28,718 nt of DNA from positions 1-28,718 of IMG/VR virus record IMGVR_UViG_3300044691_000169. One strand, written 5' to 3'. Under the pieces are notes generated by a model. It was not told the origin of the DNA. It did no database searches and saw only the letters and a list, made by a program, of their open reading frames with translations. The stretch's first letter is position 1, and every line of letters starts with the position of its first letter. The position numbers were made by a program, and so were the translations under genes. This DNA is from a virus. This document shows positions 295 to 16,227 of this stretch, one piece after another.

Positions 295-510
295 TTAGAA
301 GTCCGTCGCCCAGGTGTTGCGCGATTGGAGCCGAGTTAGCTCGCGATCCGTGACGCGCTCGCGGTGTCCGTCTTTCCATACGATGACGTTGGGGCTTACG
401 TTGATAAGCCGGAAGTCAGCGGCGGCCTTGCGGTCGTCAACTGCGGTTGGTGTGTAGGTTCCCATTGGTTCGGCGGCTTTGATCTTCGTGAGTGTCGCGG
501 TCGTCATCAT
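295..510 (-). CDS. Small hypothetical early protein, leaderless gene
   Basis: Encodes 71 residues with no domain I recognise. The C-terminal half (DFRLINVSPNVIVWKDGHRERVTDREL) has the look of a small beta-hairpin fold. The ATG at 510 is exactly six bases downstream of the -10 of the palindrome promoter at 517-545, so the transcript should begin at or beside the start codon, with no room for a Shine-Dalgarno sequence. The gene opens with a tandem ATGATG, as do two other genes in this regulon. It is the last gene before the terminator at 250-276. The start is well supported by promoter geometry; the function is unknown. Confidence 0.75.
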   Translation of the reverse strand: MMTTATLTKIKAAEPMGTYTPTAVDDRKAAADFRLINVSPNVIVWKDGHRERVTDRELTRLQSRNTWATDF

Positions 511-516
511 GAATAC

Positions 517-545
517 AGATTACCAACCTACTAGTAAGCTGTCAA
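517..545 (-). promoter_or_regulatory. Palindrome promoter copy 1 (drives 295-510)
   Basis: On the minus strand: -35 TTGACA at 545-540, a 17-base spacer containing TACTAGTA, and -10 TAATCT at 522-517. The ATG at 510 follows after six bases. One outer palindrome base differs from the perfect CTTACTAGTAAG. It is one of eight copies of the same design in the window. Confidence 0.85.
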
Positions 546-553
546 GCGCCAAT

Positions 554-832
554 TTACTGCAGGCCGGCGGCTGCCGGCATCGCGAGCAGCGCCGCGCCGT
601 GCAACTCATTCCAACGCTCTATACGGCGCTCACAGTTGGCGCGGACAGTCTCCCGCCGCTCAACGTCACGGGCGAACCTAGGAGCGATCTCAAGCGCATC
701 CAGAGCGGCTATCTGCTCCCCCATGACCGCCGGCACGTTGCGGCGAGCGAACTCCTCGCGGGTGTGTCCCTGCAAATCCAAGTTGCTCCACTGTGCCGCG
801 TCGATAACCAGCCTGATAGCGTCAATTCGCAT
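554..832 (-). CDS. Hypothetical early protein, 92 aa
   Basis: Second gene of a two-gene unit. Its ATG at 832 follows directly on the TAA of the gene at 833-1057 (TAAATG junction), so it is probably translated by reinitiation or coupling. The protein is rich in Ala, Arg and Glu and looks mainly helical (for example RRNVPAVMGEQIAALDALE and RRIERWNELHGAALLAMP). I see no catalytic or metal-binding motif and recognise no family. It has no promoter of its own and depends on the palindrome promoter at 1064-1092. Confidence 0.65.
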   Translation of the reverse strand: MRIDAIRLVIDAAQWSNLDLQGHTREEFARRNVPAVMGEQIAALDALEIAPRFARDVERRETVRANCERRIERWNELHGAALLAMPAAAGLQ

Positions 833-1057
833 TTATGCAACCTCCAAGAGCGCCGAGACGCCCTTCCAACTCTTGTAATGGCTCTCAACGTCCGCGAGCG
901 TCTCGAAGCGCTTGAGAGAGCCTAGACGACCGCTCCAAGCTCGCGTGCAAGCGTTCTGTGTGCTCATGTACCAGGCGTTCTCACCTTTGCGAAGGGTCAT
1001 GGTGTGGCCGCCCTTGACTAGCTGAAACTCGGTTGCGGATATCGCTTGAATCATCAT
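833..1057 (-). CDS. Small hypothetical early protein, leaderless gene
   Basis: Encodes 74 residues. The sequence (FQLVKGGHTMTLRKGENAW, then KRFETLADVESHYKSW) reads like a small alpha/beta protein that ends in a helix, but I cannot assign a family. The ATG at 1057 begins a tandem ATGATG and lies six bases after the -10 of the promoter at 1064-1092. No Shine-Dalgarno sequence is possible if transcription starts at the usual distance. The gene at 554-832 follows immediately with a TAAATG junction. Confidence 0.75.
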   Translation of the reverse strand: MMIQAISATEFQLVKGGHTMTLRKGENAWYMSTQNACTRAWSGRLGSLKRFETLADVESHYKSWKGVSALLEVA

Positions 1058-1063
1058 GAGTAG

Positions 1064-1092
1064 AGATTACCAACTTACTAGTAAGCTGTCAA
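1064..1092 (-). promoter_or_regulatory. Palindrome promoter copy 2 (drives 833-1057 and 554-832)
   Basis: Minus strand: TTGACA at 1092-1087, a 17-base spacer with the perfect 12-bp palindrome CTTACTAGTAAG, and TAATCT at 1069-1064. The ATG starts at 1057, six bases further on. The sequence matches copy 4 through the ATG. Confidence 0.88.
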
Positions 1093-1095
1093 GCG

Positions 1096-1224
1096 CTAAA
1101 TTAGCGGAGCGACCCGATACACCAGGCCGGCTCCGCACCACACCACATAATCGAAGGCGTCCGCGTGTCGCCAGATGCCGCCGAACTCTACCACGGGCTT
1201 ACCGCAATGCCGGCAAGTAGGCAT
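1096..1224 (-). CDS. Tiny zinc-knuckle-like protein, 42 aa
   Basis: A short gene whose ATG (1224-1222) overlaps the TAA of the preceding gene in a TAATG junction, so translation is probably coupled. It ends with TAG at 1098-1096, four bases before the -35 of the next promoter. The protein begins MPTCRHCGKPVVEFGG, a C-x2-C knuckle, and later has WRHADAFDYVVWC with a third Cys and a His that could complete a metal site. Such minimal treble-clef or zinc-ribbon pieces are common in phage early regions. Function is unknown; the coding call rests on the exact stop/start overlap and the metal-binding pattern. Confidence 0.7.
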   Translation of the reverse strand: MPTCRHCGKPVVEFGGIWRHADAFDYVVWCGAGLVYRVAPLI

Positions 1225-1553
1225 TAGAGGTTCGCAAATCTGGGGACGCTCACCGTGAGCCCGGTTTCGAGAGAGAAGACAGTACGGAGATTGTCGGCGT
1301 ACACATCCTCATGCGTTGCGATCTCAGCGAGCTTGACGCCCCGTAGCTTGCTGAATGTCACGGTGTACGTATCCGCCGGCGTGAGTTCAATCTTCACAAC
1401 GTTGATTCCCCGCTTTGTGAATCCACCACCACCAGGCAGCCGAAACACTAAGTAATTGTCGCCGCCGATGAAGCTCTTTGCGCCGGTCATCATCTTGAAA
1501 CCGCCGCCGCCGAGTTGCTGAAGGATTGTGTTTGCTACTGTCATGTTTGCCAT
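1224..1553 (-). CDS. Hypothetical Gly-rich early protein, leaderless gene
   Basis: The frame is open further upstream to 1712, but the promoter at 1560-1588 lies inside that longer frame and places transcription start at the ATG at 1553. I therefore choose the 109-residue form starting MANMTVANTILQQLGGGG. The protein has two Gly-rich turns (QLGGGGFKMM and LPGGGGFTKRG), then a beta-rich part (INVVKIELTPADTYTVTFSKLRG) and an acidic helix with DVYADNLRTVFSLETGL. It recalls small phage proteins of unknown function in which GGGGF turns alternate with strands, but I cannot name a family. The 42-aa zinc-knuckle gene follows with a TAATG overlap. Confidence 0.75.
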   Translation of the reverse strand: MANMTVANTILQQLGGGGFKMMTGAKSFIGGDNYLVFRLPGGGGFTKRGINVVKIELTPADTYTVTFSKLRGVKLAEIATHEDVYADNLRTVFSLETGLTVSVPRFANL

Positions 1554-1559
1554 GAGTAG

Positions 1560-1588
1560 AGAGTACCAACCTACTAGTAAGCTGTCAA
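1560..1588 (-). promoter_or_regulatory. Palindrome promoter copy 3 (drives 1224-1553)
   Basis: Minus strand: TTGACA at 1588-1583, a 17-base spacer with TACTAGTA, and a variant -10, TACTCT, at 1565-1560. The ATG at 1553 is again six bases downstream. This copy fixes the start of the downstream gene well inside a longer open frame. Confidence 0.82.
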
Positions 1589-1596
1589 GCGCTAAT

Positions 1597-1875
1597 TTAC
1601 GCAACCCACGATTGCCGGTGAATGGGCTCCCACTCCCATTGACCAGGCCGGTAAGTACGCTGAGAGATCTTGCCATCACGGAGCGTAAAGCTCTGTAAGC
1701 GACCATCGGCACGTAGGACCAACGCGCCTCCCTTACGTCGCACCCAGGCTCTCACAGCAGCCTTCCAATCCGCCGCGCCGGTATGGTGAGCGAGCGTGCG
1801 CCACTCGGGGACGGTGAGGAGATTCGTGGGCATGGCGTTACGGTCGAAGTTGGTAGTGATTGCGTTCGTCATCAT
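1597..1875 (-). CDS. Hypothetical early protein, 92 aa, leaderless gene
   Basis: The ATG at 1875 (tandem ATGATG) is six bases after the -10 of the promoter at 1882-1910. The protein starts MMTNAITTNFDRNAMPTNLL and has a basic middle (WKAAVRAWVRRKGGALVLRADG) and an aromatic C-terminus (RPGQWEWEPIHRQSW). The basic, tryptophan-rich character would suit nucleic-acid binding, but no known fold is evident. The gene ends eight bases before the -35 of the next promoter downstream. Confidence 0.75.
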   Translation of the reverse strand: MMTNAITTNFDRNAMPTNLLTVPEWRTLAHHTGAADWKAAVRAWVRRKGGALVLRADGRLQSFTLRDGKISQRTYRPGQWEWEPIHRQSWVA

Positions 1876-1881
1876 GAGTAG

Positions 1882-1910
1882 AGATTACCAACTTACTAGT
1901 AAGCTGTCAA
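1882..1910 (-). promoter_or_regulatory. Palindrome promoter copy 4 (drives 1597-1875)
   Basis: Minus strand: TTGACA at 1910-1905, a 17-base spacer with the perfect palindrome CTTACTAGTAAG, and TAATCT at 1887-1882. The ATG at 1875 follows after six bases. The terminator at 1914-1954 lies directly upstream and insulates it from the preceding unit. Confidence 0.88.
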
Positions 1911-1913
1911 GCG

Positions 1914-1954
1914 CTAAATAGAATAGGGGAGCCGTGAGTGTACCGGCTCCCCTA
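1914..1954 (-). terminator. Rho-independent terminator after 1961-2890
   Basis: An 11-bp inverted repeat (stem arms 1924-1934 and 1944-1954, core AGGGGAGCCG / CGGCTCCCCT) has a 9-base loop. Read on the minus strand it is followed by TATTCTATTT. It sits just past the stop codon at 1961, as expected for a transcript end. Confidence 0.7.
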
Positions 1955-1960
1955 GGGTAG

Positions 1961-2890
1961 CTAGGCCGCCGCGAATATGGGACGGCTCGCGAAGCCGAAC
2001 TTAGGATCATCGGGGGACGGCTTGATAGTCGCTTTGAAGGTGATAGCAGCGCCGCGCTCGGCTGGTGCGCCGCTCGGGAGAGTAGACCAGACCATAAAAC
2101 CCTCAGCGGCCTTGACGAGCATCTTAGTGGTGAGTCCCCACTGGCTCTCCCGCTCCTCGACTTTTACGATGGTGCCGGTGATAGTGACGCGCCCAGAGGG
2201 GCAGGGGGCGGCGGCTTCCTTCTCGGCGGCTCGCTCAGCCTGAGTCACTGCATAGGCGTCATGCTTCGCGATGAGGGATTTAGCGAACACGGTCATTTTC
2301 TCGGAGAGCGTCCCGTACTGCTCAGTCGTGCGAATCATTTCCGCGAGCTTGTCCACGTTCGCCCAACGGCGGTTACGCTCGCGAGCCTCAGCCCAGGCAG
2401 CATCCTCGCGCTCGCGGCTGATGAAGTCATCCGGAGTCAACGCGAGCCCAACGATTGCGGGGAGTGCGTTACGCTCTGCAATCAACTCATACGCACGCGC
2501 TAAGCCTGCAGCGGTCCAAGCGGCAATTCCAGCACGCTTCCCCTTCGCTATGTGGTTCTCGTGTCGCGCCGCTTGCTTGAATGCGTCAAAATCCCCGTAA
2601 GCCATATCCAACTTTTCCGCACAGTCGCCGCCGGTCCTGATATAGCTGTTGGTGAGCGAGTGGTAGAAGAGAACGGTATAGATGCAATCAGCGCCGCAGA
2701 TGTGGCAATTGCCGCCGTGCTCGTGGCGGCTGTACGTCCCGCCGGTCTGTTTCATGTGAGCTTGGATGCGGATGCGCTGAGCGAGCGCGTACTGTGCATC
2801 CCCGATCCCTTCAATCTTGACGTGCTCGAAAGCTACAAACTCATACTCTGAGGGATTGATAACTGAGGGGCGGTGGGTATCGTTACGCAT
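1961..2890 (-). CDS. Treble-clef zinc and OB-fold-like phage protein, 309 aa
   Basis: The N-terminal third holds a metal-binding module, HEHGGNCHICGADCIY, followed after about 20 residues by RTGGDCAEKL, giving a C-x2-C plus a distal Cys and nearby His residues. The central part is helical and rich in Ala, Arg and Glu. The last 80 residues (RVTITGTIVKVEERESQWG and ATIKPSPDDPKFGFASRP) alternate strands and turns as an OB-fold would. Similar proteins occur widely in phages without a proven role. Single-stranded DNA or RNA binding is a reasonable inference. The ATG at 2890 has GGAGG nine bases upstream, which itself lies within the short leaderless reading frame at 2883-2906. Transcription comes from 2913-2941 and ends at 1914-1954. 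Confidence 0.8.
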   Translation of the reverse strand: MRNDTHRPSVINPSEYEFVAFEHVKIEGIGDAQYALAQRIRIQAHMKQTGGTYSRHEHGGNCHICGADCIYTVLFYHSLTNSYIRTGGDCAEKLDMAYGDFDAFKQAARHENHIAKGKRAGIAAWTAAGLARAYELIAERNALPAIVGLALTPDDFISREREDAAWAEARERNRRWANVDKLAEMIRTTEQYGTLSEKMTVFAKSLIAKHDAYAVTQAERAAEKEAAAPCPSGRVTITGTIVKVEERESQWGLTTKMLVKAAEGFMVWSTLPSGAPAERGAAITFKATIKPSPDDPKFGFASRPIFAAA

Positions 2891-2906
2891 TGGGTGTTGC
2901 CTCCAT
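2883..2906 (-). CDS. Seven-codon leader ORF overlapping the next start
   Basis: The ATG at 2906 sits six bases after the -10, at the same place where the leaderless genes start. It opens a frame of seven residues (MEATPNA) whose TAA overlaps the ATG at 2890 of the 309-aa gene. The same bases supply GGAGG as a Shine-Dalgarno sequence for that gene. Promoter copy 7 carries the same leader, but there it reads in frame into the gene. Whether the peptide is made is unproven. Confidence 0.4.
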   Translation of the reverse strand: MEATPNA

Positions 2907-2912
2907 GAGTAG

Positions 2913-2941
2913 AGATTACCAACTTACTAGTAAGCTGTCAA
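2913..2941 (-). promoter_or_regulatory. Palindrome promoter copy 5 (drives 1961-2890)
   Basis: Minus strand: TTGACA at 2941-2936, a 17-base spacer with the perfect CTTACTAGTAAG, and TAATCT at 2918-2913. The TGA stop of the upstream gene (2940-2938) lies within the -35 hexamer, so that gene's terminal codon and this promoter share bases. Confidence 0.88.
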
Positions 2942-3783
2942 GCGGATAATCTCTGAGCTTCCACCATCGCCTGATTGATTTGGCTCGCTAATACCTGCTC
3001 TACCGTCGCCTTCATCCTCTCCGGAGAGATCTCCGCGATGACCTGACGAGCCGCCACAATCGCTTTCTCTGCGGTATCCCCGCTCCCCGTAGACTTCCCG
3101 GTAATCGTCTCAGTGACGGTAAAGGAAATCTTCCCATCGTCCTCAGCGCTTCCCCATCGCACCACCACAAACTTGAGCGGAGCCATTACTCCTAGCTCGA
3201 TTGGTGTACCCATCTTCAGCACCTTCGGATTTTCCACCGGCTTTGTGATGGTATGGCCGAGAGATTTGCAATTCATCCCCATTGGCCCACGTCCGCACGT
3301 TACACACTTCGCGGGACTATCGGGCATGGCGCACAGTACCTCCACCATCCCATCTCCATCCTCGTCATACTTCGCCCGTCGCATCGCACGCTTGGCGTCA
3401 GCGCTGAGCGCTCCGAGCATCACTTTCTTTTGAAGCCGCTCGCGCTCTTTCTCGCTCCACGCGCTCAGCGTCTTTACAGCTTCGGCGCGGTTGATAGCGT
3501 TCATCGTGCAACTAGTCTTTATCTTCCCAACGTGGCCGGCGATGCGAAGCCTGCGAGTCTCCACCGTGCGCTCAGCAATCAAGTCAACCGGACCTTCTAC
3601 TTGATATCCCTGGGGACGTTTCTCGTCGCAATACCACTCGCCGCCGGTAACGATCACTTCCACGCGATCTATAGTGACTCCCTTGCTCCAAGTCCGCAAC
3701 CGCTTACCGTCTACGCAAACGGGGGCTTTGCCTTCGACTGGTACCGCTACAACCGGAGCCTTACTCTTCACCAATGACTTCAT
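2938..3783 (-). CDS. Hypothetical early protein with a Cys cluster, 281 aa
   Basis: The frame opens earlier (3894), but the ATG at 3783 has a strong Shine-Dalgarno sequence, GGGAGGAG, at the right distance. That gives 281 residues starting MKSLVKSKAPVVAVPVEGKA. Around two thirds in there is AKCVTCGRGPMGMNCKSLGHT, a C-x2-C plus Cys and His arrangement that could bind zinc. A charged helical segment (KTLSAWSEKERERLQKKV) precedes it. The C-terminus has a strand-rich part (FVVVRWGSAEDDGKISFTVTE) and a helical end. No family is recognised. It starts inside the 3' end of the 65-aa gene, and its TGA lies within the next promoter. Confidence 0.7.
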   Translation of the reverse strand: MKSLVKSKAPVVAVPVEGKAPVCVDGKRLRTWSKGVTIDRVEVIVTGGEWYCDEKRPQGYQVEGPVDLIAERTVETRRLRIAGHVGKIKTSCTMNAINRAEAVKTLSAWSEKERERLQKKVMLGALSADAKRAMRRAKYDEDGDGMVEVLCAMPDSPAKCVTCGRGPMGMNCKSLGHTITKPVENPKVLKMGTPIELGVMAPLKFVVVRWGSAEDDGKISFTVTETITGKSTGSGDTAEKAIVAARQVIAEISPERMKATVEQVLASQINQAMVEAQRLSA

Positions 3784-3958
3784 AATTACTCCTCCCGCAA
3801 TTCGGGGTATGCGTTGAATGCCCAGGTTGCCGCGTCTTTGGCGAGCTCGCGGGGCGCTCAGATGCGATCTCGTATTTCGCGTACACAACAGCAAGGCACG
3901 CGTGGTTTACGCAAGTCGCTTTGTATGCCTTCATCTTCTGTTCGTATGTCTTTGCCAT
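3761..3958 (-). CDS. Small hypothetical early protein, 65 aa, leaderless gene
   Basis: The ATG at 3958 is six bases after the -10 of the promoter at 3965-3993. The protein starts MAKTYEQKMKAYKATCVNHA and is basic. Two Cys residues and a His lie near the start (TCVNHACLAVVYAKYE), and the rest is a low-complexity basic tail that overlaps the start of the next gene by 23 bases. No function can be assigned. The tail may simply be tolerated read-through sequence that couples translation to the 281-aa gene. Confidence 0.65.
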   Translation of the reverse strand: MAKTYEQKMKAYKATCVNHACLAVVYAKYEIASERPASSPKTRQPGHSTHTPNCGRSNYEVIGEE

Positions 3959-3964
3959 GAGTAG

Positions 3965-3993
3965 AGATTACCAACCTACTAGTAAGCTGTCAA
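3965..3993 (-). promoter_or_regulatory. Palindrome promoter copy 6 (drives 3761-3958 and 2938-3783)
   Basis: Minus strand: TTGACA at 3993-3988, a 17-base spacer with TACTAGTA, and TAATCT at 3970-3965. The ATG at 3958 follows after six bases. The preceding operon ends with TAG at 3999-3997, only three bases before the -35. Confidence 0.87.
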
Positions 3994-4092: not shown

Positions 4093-4289
4093 AGCCCCAC
4101 CGCCGTAGCGCATCCCGCACGCTGCCACACGGCGCGGAGATAATCGCGGATCGCCGGCGTACTACTCTTGTGGCATTCCCAACGCCGCGCAGCGCTCACA
4201 TAGATCCAAAGTGGCCAGTGTGAGCGAGGCTTCATAGAGCTTTTGAAGTCGCCGTGATCCCAACTCGATAGAAGTATTCTCTGTAACAT
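4089..4289 (-). CDS. Hypothetical early protein, 66 aa
   Basis: The ATG at 4289 follows directly on the TAG of the 44-aa gene (TAGATG), and its TGA overlaps the next ATG. Both junctions fit coupled translation within one operon. The protein is basic and tryptophan-rich (SHWPLWIYVSAARRWECHK, then YLRAVWQRAGC), with a helical C-terminus. No known motif is visible. The coding call depends mainly on the packing of the operon, since the sequence alone is not distinctive. Confidence 0.55.
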   Translation of the reverse strand: MLQRILLSSWDHGDFKSSMKPRSHWPLWIYVSAARRWECHKSSTPAIRDYLRAVWQRAGCATAVGL

Positions 4290-4424
4290 CTAGCACCACC
4301 ATCCATGAAAAGTTATCGTAGAGCCGTCATCCCATCGCATCGTGAACGTCGGCGCACAAGCACAAAATAGCCAATAGCAATACAGCGCGAAGACGTAGAG
4401 TTGCGCTCGCCAGTGGAGCCTCAT
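4290..4424 (-). CDS. Tiny membrane or secreted protein, 44 aa
   Basis: The ATG at 4424 overlaps the TAA of the gene at 4424-4636 in a TAATG junction. The product begins MRLHWRAQLYVFALYCYWLF: a short basic n-region, then a hydrophobic core up to CACAP. A polar tail with TMRWDDGSTITFHGWWC follows. It could be a signal-anchored or exported peptide, and the A-C pairs near the end of the core might allow lipidation. Tail pieces resembling MRWDDGS and TTLWECDGN in neighbouring genes suggest small exported phage proteins. Function is unknown. Confidence 0.55.
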   Translation of the reverse strand: MRLHWRAQLYVFALYCYWLFCACAPTFTMRWDDGSTITFHGWWC

Positions 4425-4636
4425 TACCGCCTCACCTGAAAATTACCGTCACACTCCCATAGCGTTGTAGGGTCAGAAAAGGTATCAGCGCGAACAATGC
4501 GGCAATGGTGTTGTATCGAGAATTGCACCCATTCCCGCTCACTCTCAGCACGCCGGCGGTCGTCCTCATTGATCTCGTGAGCGAATAAAACAAAAGCTCC
4601 GATGACCAGTAACAAAATTGCAGCGAGTGTCTTCAT
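4424..4636 (-). CDS. Small exported or membrane protein, 70 aa
   Basis: Begins MKTLAAILLLVIGAFVLFAH, a hydrophobic N-terminal segment that is either a signal peptide or a membrane anchor. A charged stretch (EINEDDRRRAESEREW) and a small disulfide-capable domain (VQFSIQHHCRIV ... TTLWECDGNFQVRR) follow. Short phage proteins with HHC...WxCDDG endings are common in prophage early regions and remain uncharacterised. The ATG at 4636 overlaps the upstream TGA (ATGA) and its TAA overlaps the downstream ATG (TAATG), so it is an internal gene of the AlpA operon. Confidence 0.75.
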   Translation of the reverse strand: MKTLAAILLLVIGAFVLFAHEINEDDRRRAESEREWVQFSIQHHCRIVRADTFSDPTTLWECDGNFQVRR

Positions 4637-4941
4637 TTACTCAACTCCGCGTTACGCATGGATGCCGCTCTGAGTTGCTCCCCGGCCTTCGAGTACGAAG
4701 AGGGCATAATGCGATGGCCGATAAATTTGCAGGTTTCGCAGACGTGGAGCTTGTACAAGTGGCGGCGCGGACCCGAGCAGCGATGAGGCGTTGCAGTTGG
4801 CGGCCCCCAAAACTTCATGTTGCGCTTTCTCTCAAGGTCACAGTTGCCCCAGGTAGCTTCACAGTCGCCGTTATGGTGGTGATGTTTCGGCGCGGCCTTG
4901 ATTCTCTCGGCTTCGGCTCTTTCAAACTCCGGATCTCTCAC
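4633..4941 (-). CDS. Hypothetical His/Cys-rich early protein, 102 aa
   Basis: Starts with GTG at 4941, overlapping the TGA of the AlpA-like gene (GTGA junction). The N-terminus is helical and acidic (MRDPEFERAEAERIKAAPKH). It is followed by HHHHNGDCEATWGNC and later LHVCETCKFIGHRIMP, giving several Cys and His residues that look like two metal-binding knuckles. No family is recognised, but a zinc-dependent DNA- or protein-binding role is plausible. Transcription comes from the promoter at 5188-5215. Confidence 0.7.
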   Translation of the reverse strand: MRDPEFERAEAERIKAAPKHHHHNGDCEATWGNCDLERKRNMKFWGPPTATPHRCSGPRRHLYKLHVCETCKFIGHRIMPSSYSKAGEQLRAASMRNAELSK

Positions 4942-5153
4942 GCCGTCACCGTCCCCATCTGCTCCACCAGAGCCCGTATGCTCTCAACGCTCCACATACG
5001 AATACGCGGACCCTGTAGCACGCCGGCGGGATATTTCCCCGAGCCAACCCCACGCCACCAAGTTGCACGGCTGACGGGGATTACTGGGGGAATCCCTCGC
5101 TTACGGTCCCCGATAATCTGGGGAAGTCTCATATAACCAATTTCAGGCAGCAT
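4938..5153 (-). CDS. AlpA-type DNA-binding regulator
   Basis: The product matches the AlpA/excisionase-like winged-helix pattern: YMRLPQIIG, then IPVSRATWWRGVGSGKYPAG, then GPRIRMWSVESIRALVEQM. In this family the VSRxTWWxGVxSGxxP segment is the recognition helix and wing. Family members regulate prophage genes or assist excision. The first ATG (5153) gives 71 residues; an internal ATG at 5132 would start MRLPQIIG. It is the first gene of a tightly overlapping six-gene operon (5153 down to 3997). A hairpin sits between its promoter and its start. It could be the excisionase for the integrase, or an early regulator; it is not an obvious CI-type repressor. Confidence 0.85.
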   Translation of the reverse strand: MLPEIGYMRLPQIIGDRKRGIPPVIPVSRATWWRGVGSGKYPAGVLQGPRIRMWSVESIRALVEQMGTVTA

Positions 5154-5241: not shown

Positions 5242-5397
5242 TTACGGAGTCGATACCCATTGTGTGTCTAAATGCATTTGAAAACCTTTGATATCAAACG
5301 ACTCGCACAAATTCAAAAACATCCGTGAATCGGAAGTGGTCCGAAAATGGATAAAGATTCGTCCGTCCGTTTGCTGCTTTATTTCCACAATCCTCAC
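5242..5397 (-). CDS. Small hypothetical early protein, 51 aa, GTG start
   Basis: A GTG at 5397 overlaps the TGA of the preceding gene in a GTGA junction, and the frame runs to TAA at 5244-5242. The product (MRIVEIKQQTDGRIFIHFRT, then SRMFLNLCESFDIKG) looks like two strands followed by a helix and strand, a coherent small fold. The coding call rests on the exact overlap and on the well-formed amphipathic pattern. No family is recognised. It is the second gene from promoter copy 7. Confidence 0.6.
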   Translation of the reverse strand: MRIVEIKQQTDGRIFIHFRTTSDSRMFLNLCESFDIKGFQMHLDTQWVSTP

Positions 5398-5633
5398 GCA
5401 ACCCCCTTGCAGCACGGCATTACGCGGAAGAGTTCTGAGTTTGAATACTCAGACTCAAAGTCATTATTTATCTGTTTAGCTTCGCTCGCAACGGCCAACT
5501 CTACCGTATCCCCCTCTATCGTCCAATCTAGTGAGTGACGTTTGCGGGTAAGATCTCGACAACCTACCGCATGCACTTCCATTGGGTAATCGGTGCGGAT
5601 AACTTGGAATTTGCTCATTGGTGTTGCCTCCAT
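5394..5633 (-). CDS. Small hypothetical early protein, two possible starts
   Basis: From the ATG at 5633 the product has 79 residues (MEATPMSKFQVIRTDYPMEV). From the ATG at 5618 it has 74 (MSKFQVIRTDYPMEV). The first ATG is six bases after the -10, as in the leaderless genes. The second is preceded by GGAGG eight bases upstream and is the better ribosome-binding start. The same leader is used at 2883-2906, where the frame closes instead. The body (TIEGDTVELAVASEAKQINNDFESEYSNSELFRVMPCC) is acidic, with a CC near the end. No family is recognised. The 51-aa gene follows through a GTGA overlap. Confidence 0.65.
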   Translation of the reverse strand: MEATPMSKFQVIRTDYPMEVHAVGCRDLTRKRHSLDWTIEGDTVELAVASEAKQINNDFESEYSNSELFRVMPCCKGVA

Positions 5634-5639
5634 GTAGAG

Positions 5640-5668
5640 AGATTACCAACCTACTAGTAATCTGTCAA
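5640..5668 (-). promoter_or_regulatory. Palindrome promoter copy 7 (drives 5394-5633 and 5242-5397)
   Basis: Minus strand: TTGACA at 5668-5663, a 17-base spacer with TACTAGTA, and TAATCT at 5645-5640. An ATG follows after six bases. A plus-strand TTGACA begins only 18 bases beyond its -35, making a divergent promoter pair. Confidence 0.85.
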
Positions 5669-5685
5669 GCACTAAATAACGCAAT

Positions 5686-5716
5686 TTGACAATTATTTTC
5701 GATGGGATATTGTTAT
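5686..5716 (+). promoter_or_regulatory. Candidate plus-strand promoter
   Basis: A perfect TTGACA at 5686-5691 is followed by candidate -10 elements of four matches out of six (TATTGT after 16 bases, TGTTAT after 19). It points rightward into a region without protein genes that ends in a strong hairpin, so it is the likely origin of a small RNA. Confidence 0.45.
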
Positions 5717-5802
5717 CTCAACTCGTCAACAGTACCCGCAAGGGACGAAATGAGTTGTCCGGCATCGAGGGGTTGACTGAACCGGATAAGTAGCGCGAAG
5801 GT

Positions 5803-5848
5803 AGCGCGGGGACCAGAGCGAGCGTATAGCAGCGCGGGGACCAGAGCG
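5803..5848. repeat. 18-bp direct repeat in the non-coding gap
   Basis: AGCGCGGGGACCAGAGCG occurs at 5803-5820 and again at 5831-5848, with a 28-base period. A shorter related piece (TAGCGCGAAGG) precedes the first copy. It lies within the candidate small RNA; it could also be a protein-binding site. Confidence 0.7.
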
Positions 5849-5865
5849 GATCTTCCCGCGAAAAC

Positions 5866-5922
5866 TCAAAGAGCGTAGGGACTCAGCCGCTACCGGCCAT
5901 CTCCCTACGCTCTCCTAATTTG
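5866..5922. terminator. Probable bidirectional terminator
   Basis: A 12-bp perfect inverted repeat (AGAGCGTAGGGA at 5870-5881, TCCCTACGCTCT at 5902-5913) has a 20-base loop. The plus strand continues TCCTAATTTG. The minus strand, after the integrase gene, continues TTTGAGTTTTC. It could end both the candidate small RNA and the integrase transcript. Confidence 0.6.
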
Positions 5923-16040: not shown

Positions 16041-16160
16041 TTAGAAGGCCCAAGGTTGGCCCCCGCGAAAGTTGACTCCGATAGCGCAAGCCATGATGAA
16101 AAGACCAGTGATTACGGCGGCGACGACTACCATTTCCCGATTGTTTTTGATGAAGGTCAT
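16041..16160 (-). CDS. Small membrane protein, 39 aa (cassette gene 1)
   Basis: The ATG at 16160 has AGGAG nine bases upstream, and the frame ends with TAA at 16043-16041. The product starts MTFIKNNREMVVVAAVITGL, continues FIMACAIGV, and ends with the short polar tail NFRGGQPWAF. It is a single membrane-spanning segment with a charged N-terminal tail. It is the first gene downstream of promoter copy 8, with a leader of about 32 bases that has a normal ribosome-binding site, unlike the leaderless early genes. A holin- or exclusion-type role is possible but not shown. Confidence 0.6.
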   Translation of the reverse strand: MTFIKNNREMVVVAAVITGLFIMACAIGVNFRGGQPWAF

Positions 16161-16198
16161 TGTCTTATTCTCCTGTTTGTTTCTCGGCTACAAGAGAG

Positions 16199-16227
16199 AC
16201 ATTAGCAGGGTACTAGTAGCCTGTCAA
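16199..16227 (-). promoter_or_regulatory. Palindrome promoter copy 8, inside the late operon
   Basis: Minus strand: TTGACA at 16227-16222, a 17-base spacer with TACTAGTA at the same offset as in the other seven copies, and TAATGT at 16204-16199. The spacer flanks and downstream bases have diverged completely from the early copies, while the -35, palindrome core and -10 are kept. This pattern indicates selection on those elements. It drives the three minus-strand genes and lies back to back with the DUF2213 gene. Confidence 0.8.

Follow-up and report, generated by a model that had tools for sequence, protein, structure and literature searches.

We find that a temperate phage fragment very probably carries a switchable operator-promoter set that would give five leaderless mRNAs, with Shine-Dalgarno (SD) leaders arising from other copies of the same promoter. 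Where transcription starts, how ribosomes would bind these mRNAs and that repression would act at a palindrome are points that we infer from the DNA sequence. The stretch analysed, called the window throughout, is the whole of the 28.7 kb virus record IMGVR_UViG_3300044691_000169 (GC 55%). Genes recognised in it encode a tyrosine integrase, endonuclease VII, large terminase, portal, protease and major capsid protein, and further a contractile tail sheath and a tape measure protein. The presence of an integrase together with terminase, capsid and sheath genes marks the record as part of the genome of a temperate phage with a contractile tail.

None of the named phages has DNA similar to the window at the megablast level. 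The nearest genome found was IMGVR_UViG_3300036787_000035 (47,971 bp; G002, hereafter the sister phage), to which a further genome, G001, is nearly identical, and the structural proteins of window and sister phage mostly share 60-80% identity. The closest named relatives, Proteus and Stenotrophomonas phages by large terminase (TerL) and Aeromonas phages by major capsid protein (MCP), point to Proteobacteria, whereas the top-scoring match of gene 3 (described below) is an Acidobacteriota phage.

A repeated promoter cassette ending in ATG

A 38-nt cassette matches the minus strand of the window seven times at three or fewer mismatches, where shuffled sequences are expected to give no match. Its layout is TTGACA, a 17 bp spacer containing TTACTAGTA, an extended -10 element (TGG-TAATCT), six bases, and ATG. 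The first base of the -35 element lies at 545, 1092, 1588, 1910, 2941, 3993 and 5668, and the A of the ATG at 510, 1057, 1553, 1875, 2906, 3958 and 5633, each six bases past the hexamer. Copy 1 (517-545, minus strand) has TTGACA, the 17-bp spacer with its TTACTAGTA core and TAATCT; the remaining matches to the cassette, all on the minus strand, are copy 2 (1064-1092), copy 3 (1560-1588), copy 4 (1882-1910), copy 5 (2913-2941), copy 6 (3965-3993) and copy 7 (5640-5668). The hexamer is TAATCT in six of the seven copies and TACTCT in copy 3. A first-pass annotation of this DNA had described this exact six-base distance from -10 to ATG for copies 1, 2, 3, 4 and 6, which we confirm and find likewise in copies 5 and 7. 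In a column-by-column comparison, CATG (positions -1 to +3) is identical in all seven copies, four of the five remaining discriminator columns vary, and identity falls off straight after the G of the ATG.

TAATCT is a weak -10 element, matching the consensus at three of six positions, and for that reason a simple consensus scan does not list the cassettes; the case for a promoter rests on the perfect -35, the 17-bp spacing, the TGn extension and conservation. No convincing copy of the cassette was found in named phages. When 79 MCP relatives were scanned with the strict promoter pattern, a single one had any match, and its two matches both lacked an ATG at six bases, so the cassette family is not common to that clade. 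Back to back with copy 7, a forward-facing promoter of good consensus (TTGACA-16-TATTGT; 5686-5713, plus strand) faces a region with no obvious ORF that holds repeats and a stem-loop, possibly a small RNA.

In five copies the promoter-borne ATG opens an ORF of 65-109 codons and lacks an SD sequence. These start codons, all on the minus strand and all as the first-pass annotation listed them, are those of gene 1 (508-510; ORF 295-510, 71 aa, beginning ATGATG, with an in-frame TAA inside the -10 hexamer), gene 2 (1055-1057; ORF 833-1057, 74 aa, also ATGATG), gene 3 (1551-1553; ORF 1224-1553, 109 aa, phrog_9437), gene 4 (1873-1875; ORF 1597-1875, 92 aa, ATGATG) and gene 6 (3956-3958; ORF 3761-3958, 65 aa). 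Genes 1 and 2 have no PHROG match. In gene 6 (3761-3958, minus strand) the latter half of the ORF is unlike the first, and an alternative frame reads ELAKDAATWAFNAYPELREE and ends at the SD of the next gene, which suggests an indel near 3850, either real or a sequencing error. That next gene, the second of the copy 6 unit (2938-3783, minus strand), is SD-led, and its sister-phage orthologue has a leaderless start.

The cassettes also share sequence in subsets: copies 1, 2 and 4 have ATGATGA in common, copies 3 and 6 ATGGCAAA, and copies 5 and 7 ATGGAGGCAACACC. By this measure copies 1, 2 and 4 are probably duplicates of one another. The tandem ATGATG that had been proposed to assist leaderless initiation is real in these three copies and occurs at 2 of 30 other window starts (Fisher p = 0.014), but this value overstates the association because the three cassettes look like duplicates, and an assisting role is thus weakly supported.

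The same promoter also stands before SD-led genes. In copy 5 the predicted +1 ATG overlaps an SD sequence (ATGGAGG, 2900-2906, minus strand; -9.3 kcal/mol), and the 309-aa gene (1961-2890) probably starts mainly at the SD-led ATG at 2890, 16 bases downstream; a search with the 309-aa protein found no relatives in viral contigs. The promoter-borne ATG of copy 5 itself opens a 7-codon ORF, MEATPNA (2883-2906, minus strand), with a stop that overlaps the start of the longer gene, and translational coupling of the two is possible. Copy 7 carries the same ATGGAGG (5627-5633, minus strand) and one C fewer than copy 5, hence its ATG at 5633 is in frame with an SD-led ATG at 5618, 15 bases downstream (gene 5394-5633). 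A diverged cassette in the structural gene region, copy 8 (16199-16227, minus strand), precedes an SD-led 39-aa ORF starting at 16160. This ORF, which with its cassette occupies 16041-16227 (minus strand), encodes a predicted membrane peptide, MTFIKNNREMVVVAAVITGLFIMACAIGVNFRGGQPWAF, and runs opposite to the surrounding structural genes; our guess is that it may be a moron expressed from the prophage. Promoter and start codon had been described as one inseparable cassette, a view contradicted by copies 5, 7 and 8 and, in the sister phage, by three promoters of this family that have leaders. Ordinary SD sequences had been ascribed to the structural genes, and most do have them, although not uniformly.

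Protein starts, leaders and spacing

We then considered whether proteins begin at the promoter-borne ATG. Gene 3 has homologues in Sinorhizobium phages phiN3 and phiM12 and in Enterobacter phage phiT5282EW whose annotated starts align exactly with its residue 1, and in these three phages the ATG has leader sequence upstream; the homologue in Tunturi_5 has its annotated start three codons later. Gene 4 and its sister-phage orthologue are conserved from residue 8 on, the only earlier ATGs being the tandem pair, and an in-frame stop lies four codons upstream, as the TAA of the -10 element. The two phages have also exchanged modes of initiation: leaderless gene 4 corresponds to sister gene 5829, which is preceded by GAGAGGAT (N-termini within 4-5 residues), and SD-led window gene 3783 corresponds to leaderless sister gene 8695 (N-termini within 3 residues). 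Alignment searches with gene 4 and with gene 6b matched the sister phage and its near-identical copy only. Residue 1 of sister gene 5107 lines up with the annotated start of a BcepF1 gene, the product of sister gene 7752 fits phrog_1081 from residue 1, and the G003 product fits an endolysin family from residue 2. Homology therefore places the beginning of the protein at the promoter ATG for genes 3 and 4 and for sister genes 5107, 7752 and 8695; the starts of genes 1, 2 and 6 are predicted from position alone. The sister phage also has a 71-bp near-identical duplication spanning the SD region and first codons of its gene 4 orthologue (L037:5527-5597, 5799-5869), which creates a second ORF with the same N-terminus.

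These alignments bear on the possibility that the ATG is a passive passenger of a duplicated promoter cassette, with translation from downstream starts. All seven copies have the ATG, two of them with a likely SD-led start downstream, and the sequences shared by copies 1/2/4, 3/6 and 5/7 suggest duplication; since copies 5 and 7 retain the ATG despite their likely downstream starts, cassette ancestry may explain part of its conservation. Gene 4, however, leaves no ATG but the tandem pair ahead of its conserved region, with the in-frame stop four codons upstream, and the starts of the gene 3 homologues coincide with residue 1. The sister phage has an ATG at +1 only where that ATG opens the gene, its leadered copies carrying GCA, TTG or GCG at that place. 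We consider a passive ATG improbable.

The -10 element ends six bases before the A and the base at -1 is C, so transcription is expected to begin at that A; the layout of -35, 17-bp spacer, extended -10 and six bases puts +1 at the usual sigma70 position, preceded by a pyrimidine. In all seven copies exactly 12 bp separate the first T of the -10 from the start codon, and for bacterial leaderless genes a TANNNT element has been placed some 12 bp ahead of the start codon (Zheng et al. 2011, PMC3160421).

Anti-SD pairing energies differ within the promoter family. The leaderless set reaches -2.9 kcal/mol at best (null median -1.7) and is background-like for all nine candidates, as against -7.4 to -10.3 kcal/mol in five of the six leadered promoters of the family, the sixth having GAGAAGAT in G002 and GAGAGGAT in G001. 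The leaderless starts of the sister phage lie at spacing 6 (5107 and 8695) and 7 (7752), and its leadered starts lie behind the promoters at 5499, 6244 and 9420. Across the core genomes, the distance from the -10 to the first ATG is six bases in nine cases and seven in two, with none at 0-5 or 8-13, and the distribution resumes at 14.

A wider test scanned viral contigs (L197-L275, L316-L395), a few related contigs among them, with two promoter patterns that were unconstrained downstream of the -10, and its counts are among the matches listed. With TATAAT, 61 of 96 promoters among the matches listed have an ATG ORF within 60 bases; spacings in these 61 are 0-4 (n = 4), 6-8 (n = 9) and at least 15 (n = 48), with none at 9-14, and the mean SD energy is 0.1 at 6-8 against -4.95 at 15 or more. 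With the CTAG-spacer pattern, again among the matches listed, 12 of 58 fall at 6-7 (mean SD energy -0.02), seven at 9-13 (mean -0.13) and the others at 14 or more (mean -5.44). Among the matches listed there are clearly two spacing classes by sequence, one at 6-8 bases without an SD and one at about 14-15 or more that is SD-rich, and this pattern makes leaderless starts at six to eight bases probably general to phage promoters and not peculiar to the window. Very roughly, the counts suggest, among the matches listed, leaderless starts at some 15-20% of those strong phage promoters that have an ORF nearby. A weaker promoter scan of 26 MCP relatives gave no clear enrichment at spacing 6-7.

The spacing classes also speak to the possibility that transcription begins further upstream or reads through from neighbours, giving an mRNA leader that has no SD. 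Read-through is possible, since the cassettes are closely spaced on a single strand. Against this, scans reveal no second convincing promoter just upstream of the genes in question, and the spacing of exactly six bases recurs in unrelated phages, apart from the SD-led class; we regard an upstream start as decidedly improbable. The earlier proposal of five leaderless genes without an SD is thus supported at the level of sequence by conservation of ATG and spacing, by homologue starts and by the switching of mode between orthologues, and also by the lambda cI precedent and the two spacing classes in other phage DNA.

A spacer palindrome and a proposed mechanism

Within the promoter spacer, copies 2, 4 and 5 contain the palindrome CTTACTAGTAAG, and in other promoters with this core the flanks of the palindrome often vary symmetrically, as judged by eye. 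Because the palindrome overlaps RNA polymerase contacts and its flanks change symmetrically, a site for a dimeric repressor is likely. It is exceedingly improbable that the repeats are instead non-promoter sites such as replication iterons, recombination sites or stoperators: short palindromic phage repeats can serve in this way, a case made for the 17-bp repeat of Cluster O (PMC4351075), but each copy here joins TTGACA to an extended -10 at 17 bp, oriented with the gene and directly before an ORF, and the sister phage keeps the promoter layout while its leader sequences differ.

The palindrome TACTAGTA also occurs in the spacers of single promoters in Streptococcus, Dictyobacter and rumen clostridia (L018, L021, L024, L025, L031 and others), often with symmetric flanks. 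Motif matches in bacterial genomes (Streptococcus, rumen clostridia and others) were set aside as candidate relatives of the cassette set: most are lone promoters, and what lies downstream of them is unrelated. A search with the products of genes 1-4 and another with those of genes 2-4 recognised no DNA-binding protein, and helix-turn-helix (HTH) proteins encoded at 4775-5062 and 4229-4489 of the sister phage are regulator candidates only.

We propose that the sigma70-type promoters, each with a palindromic operator in its spacer and scattered over the early/accessory region of the phage, would be switched together by one regulator. With the regulator bound at the operators, all units would be silent in the lysogen. 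With the site free, RNA polymerase would start, at five copies, on the first base of the ATG that opens the gene, and the resulting mRNAs would have a 5'-terminal AUG and no SD and would probably be read by direct recognition of the AUG, as for lambda cI. At copies 5, 7 and 8 the same promoter would yield a short SD-bearing leader.

More speculatively, the window may contain a regulon of leaderless early genes built from repeated operator-promoter-AUG cassettes, in which a new gene would need the cassette alone and no ribosome-binding site, the mode of initiation would swap in evolution, and copies 5 and 7 would possibly be dual-mode, with either a pair of proteins or a coupled leader peptide as the outcome; this reading is tentative, and we think it somewhat unlikely. 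If leaderless expression holds, a co-regulated set of phage genes would sidestep the SD pathway, which would matter when infection or stress alters ribosomes or initiation factors. Gene-calling programs that depend on an SD may then assign such starts wrongly. The peak at spacing 6-8 (9 of 61 and 12 of 58, among the matches listed) suggests that leaderless genes are common in phages and that sequence data allow them to be counted.

Relation to known systems

Single leaderless phage genes are already known, namely lambda cI and those at three predicted Cluster O promoters (PMC4351075). Messages of the leaderless type are spared by kasugamycin (PMC5230787). In the literature we searched, which covered few subscription papers, a repeated operator-promoter-AUG set was not found, and what looks new here is a dispersed, multi-copy set of this kind with a palindrome in the spacer.

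The stoperators of L5-type phages occur genome-wide and stop elongation; they are asymmetric and lie mostly off promoters, whereas the window core is palindromic and lies inside each promoter. The operator/stoperator repeats of cluster A (L5-type) mycobacteriophages (PMC9283540) resemble the window in that many dispersed copies of one regulatory site occur in a temperate phage.

The TA-led bacterial leaderless genes resemble the window genes in having TANNNT about 12 bp before the start and no SD (PMC3160421). The set of Zheng et al. (PMC3160421), however, consists of host genes across genomes, and the window has one repeated, operator-bearing phage cassette. Closer in kind are Cluster O mycobacteriophages, in which the predicted +1 of promoters PL1, PR2 and PL2 is the first base of the start codon (PMC4351075). 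PL2 drives a reversed gene within the structural operon, and copy 8 of the window is similar in position but SD-led. The Cluster O 17-bp palindrome lies mostly away from promoters (PMC4351075), in contrast to the window palindrome inside each promoter.

Lambda cI transcribed from PRM is, like the window genes, leaderless, with six bases between the -10 and the start codon (TAGATT-TAACGT-ATG), in a temperate phage and with operators that overlap the promoter region. PRM, however, serves one gene, itself the repressor, whereas in the window at least five unrelated small genes follow near-identical cassettes with a palindrome in the spacer.
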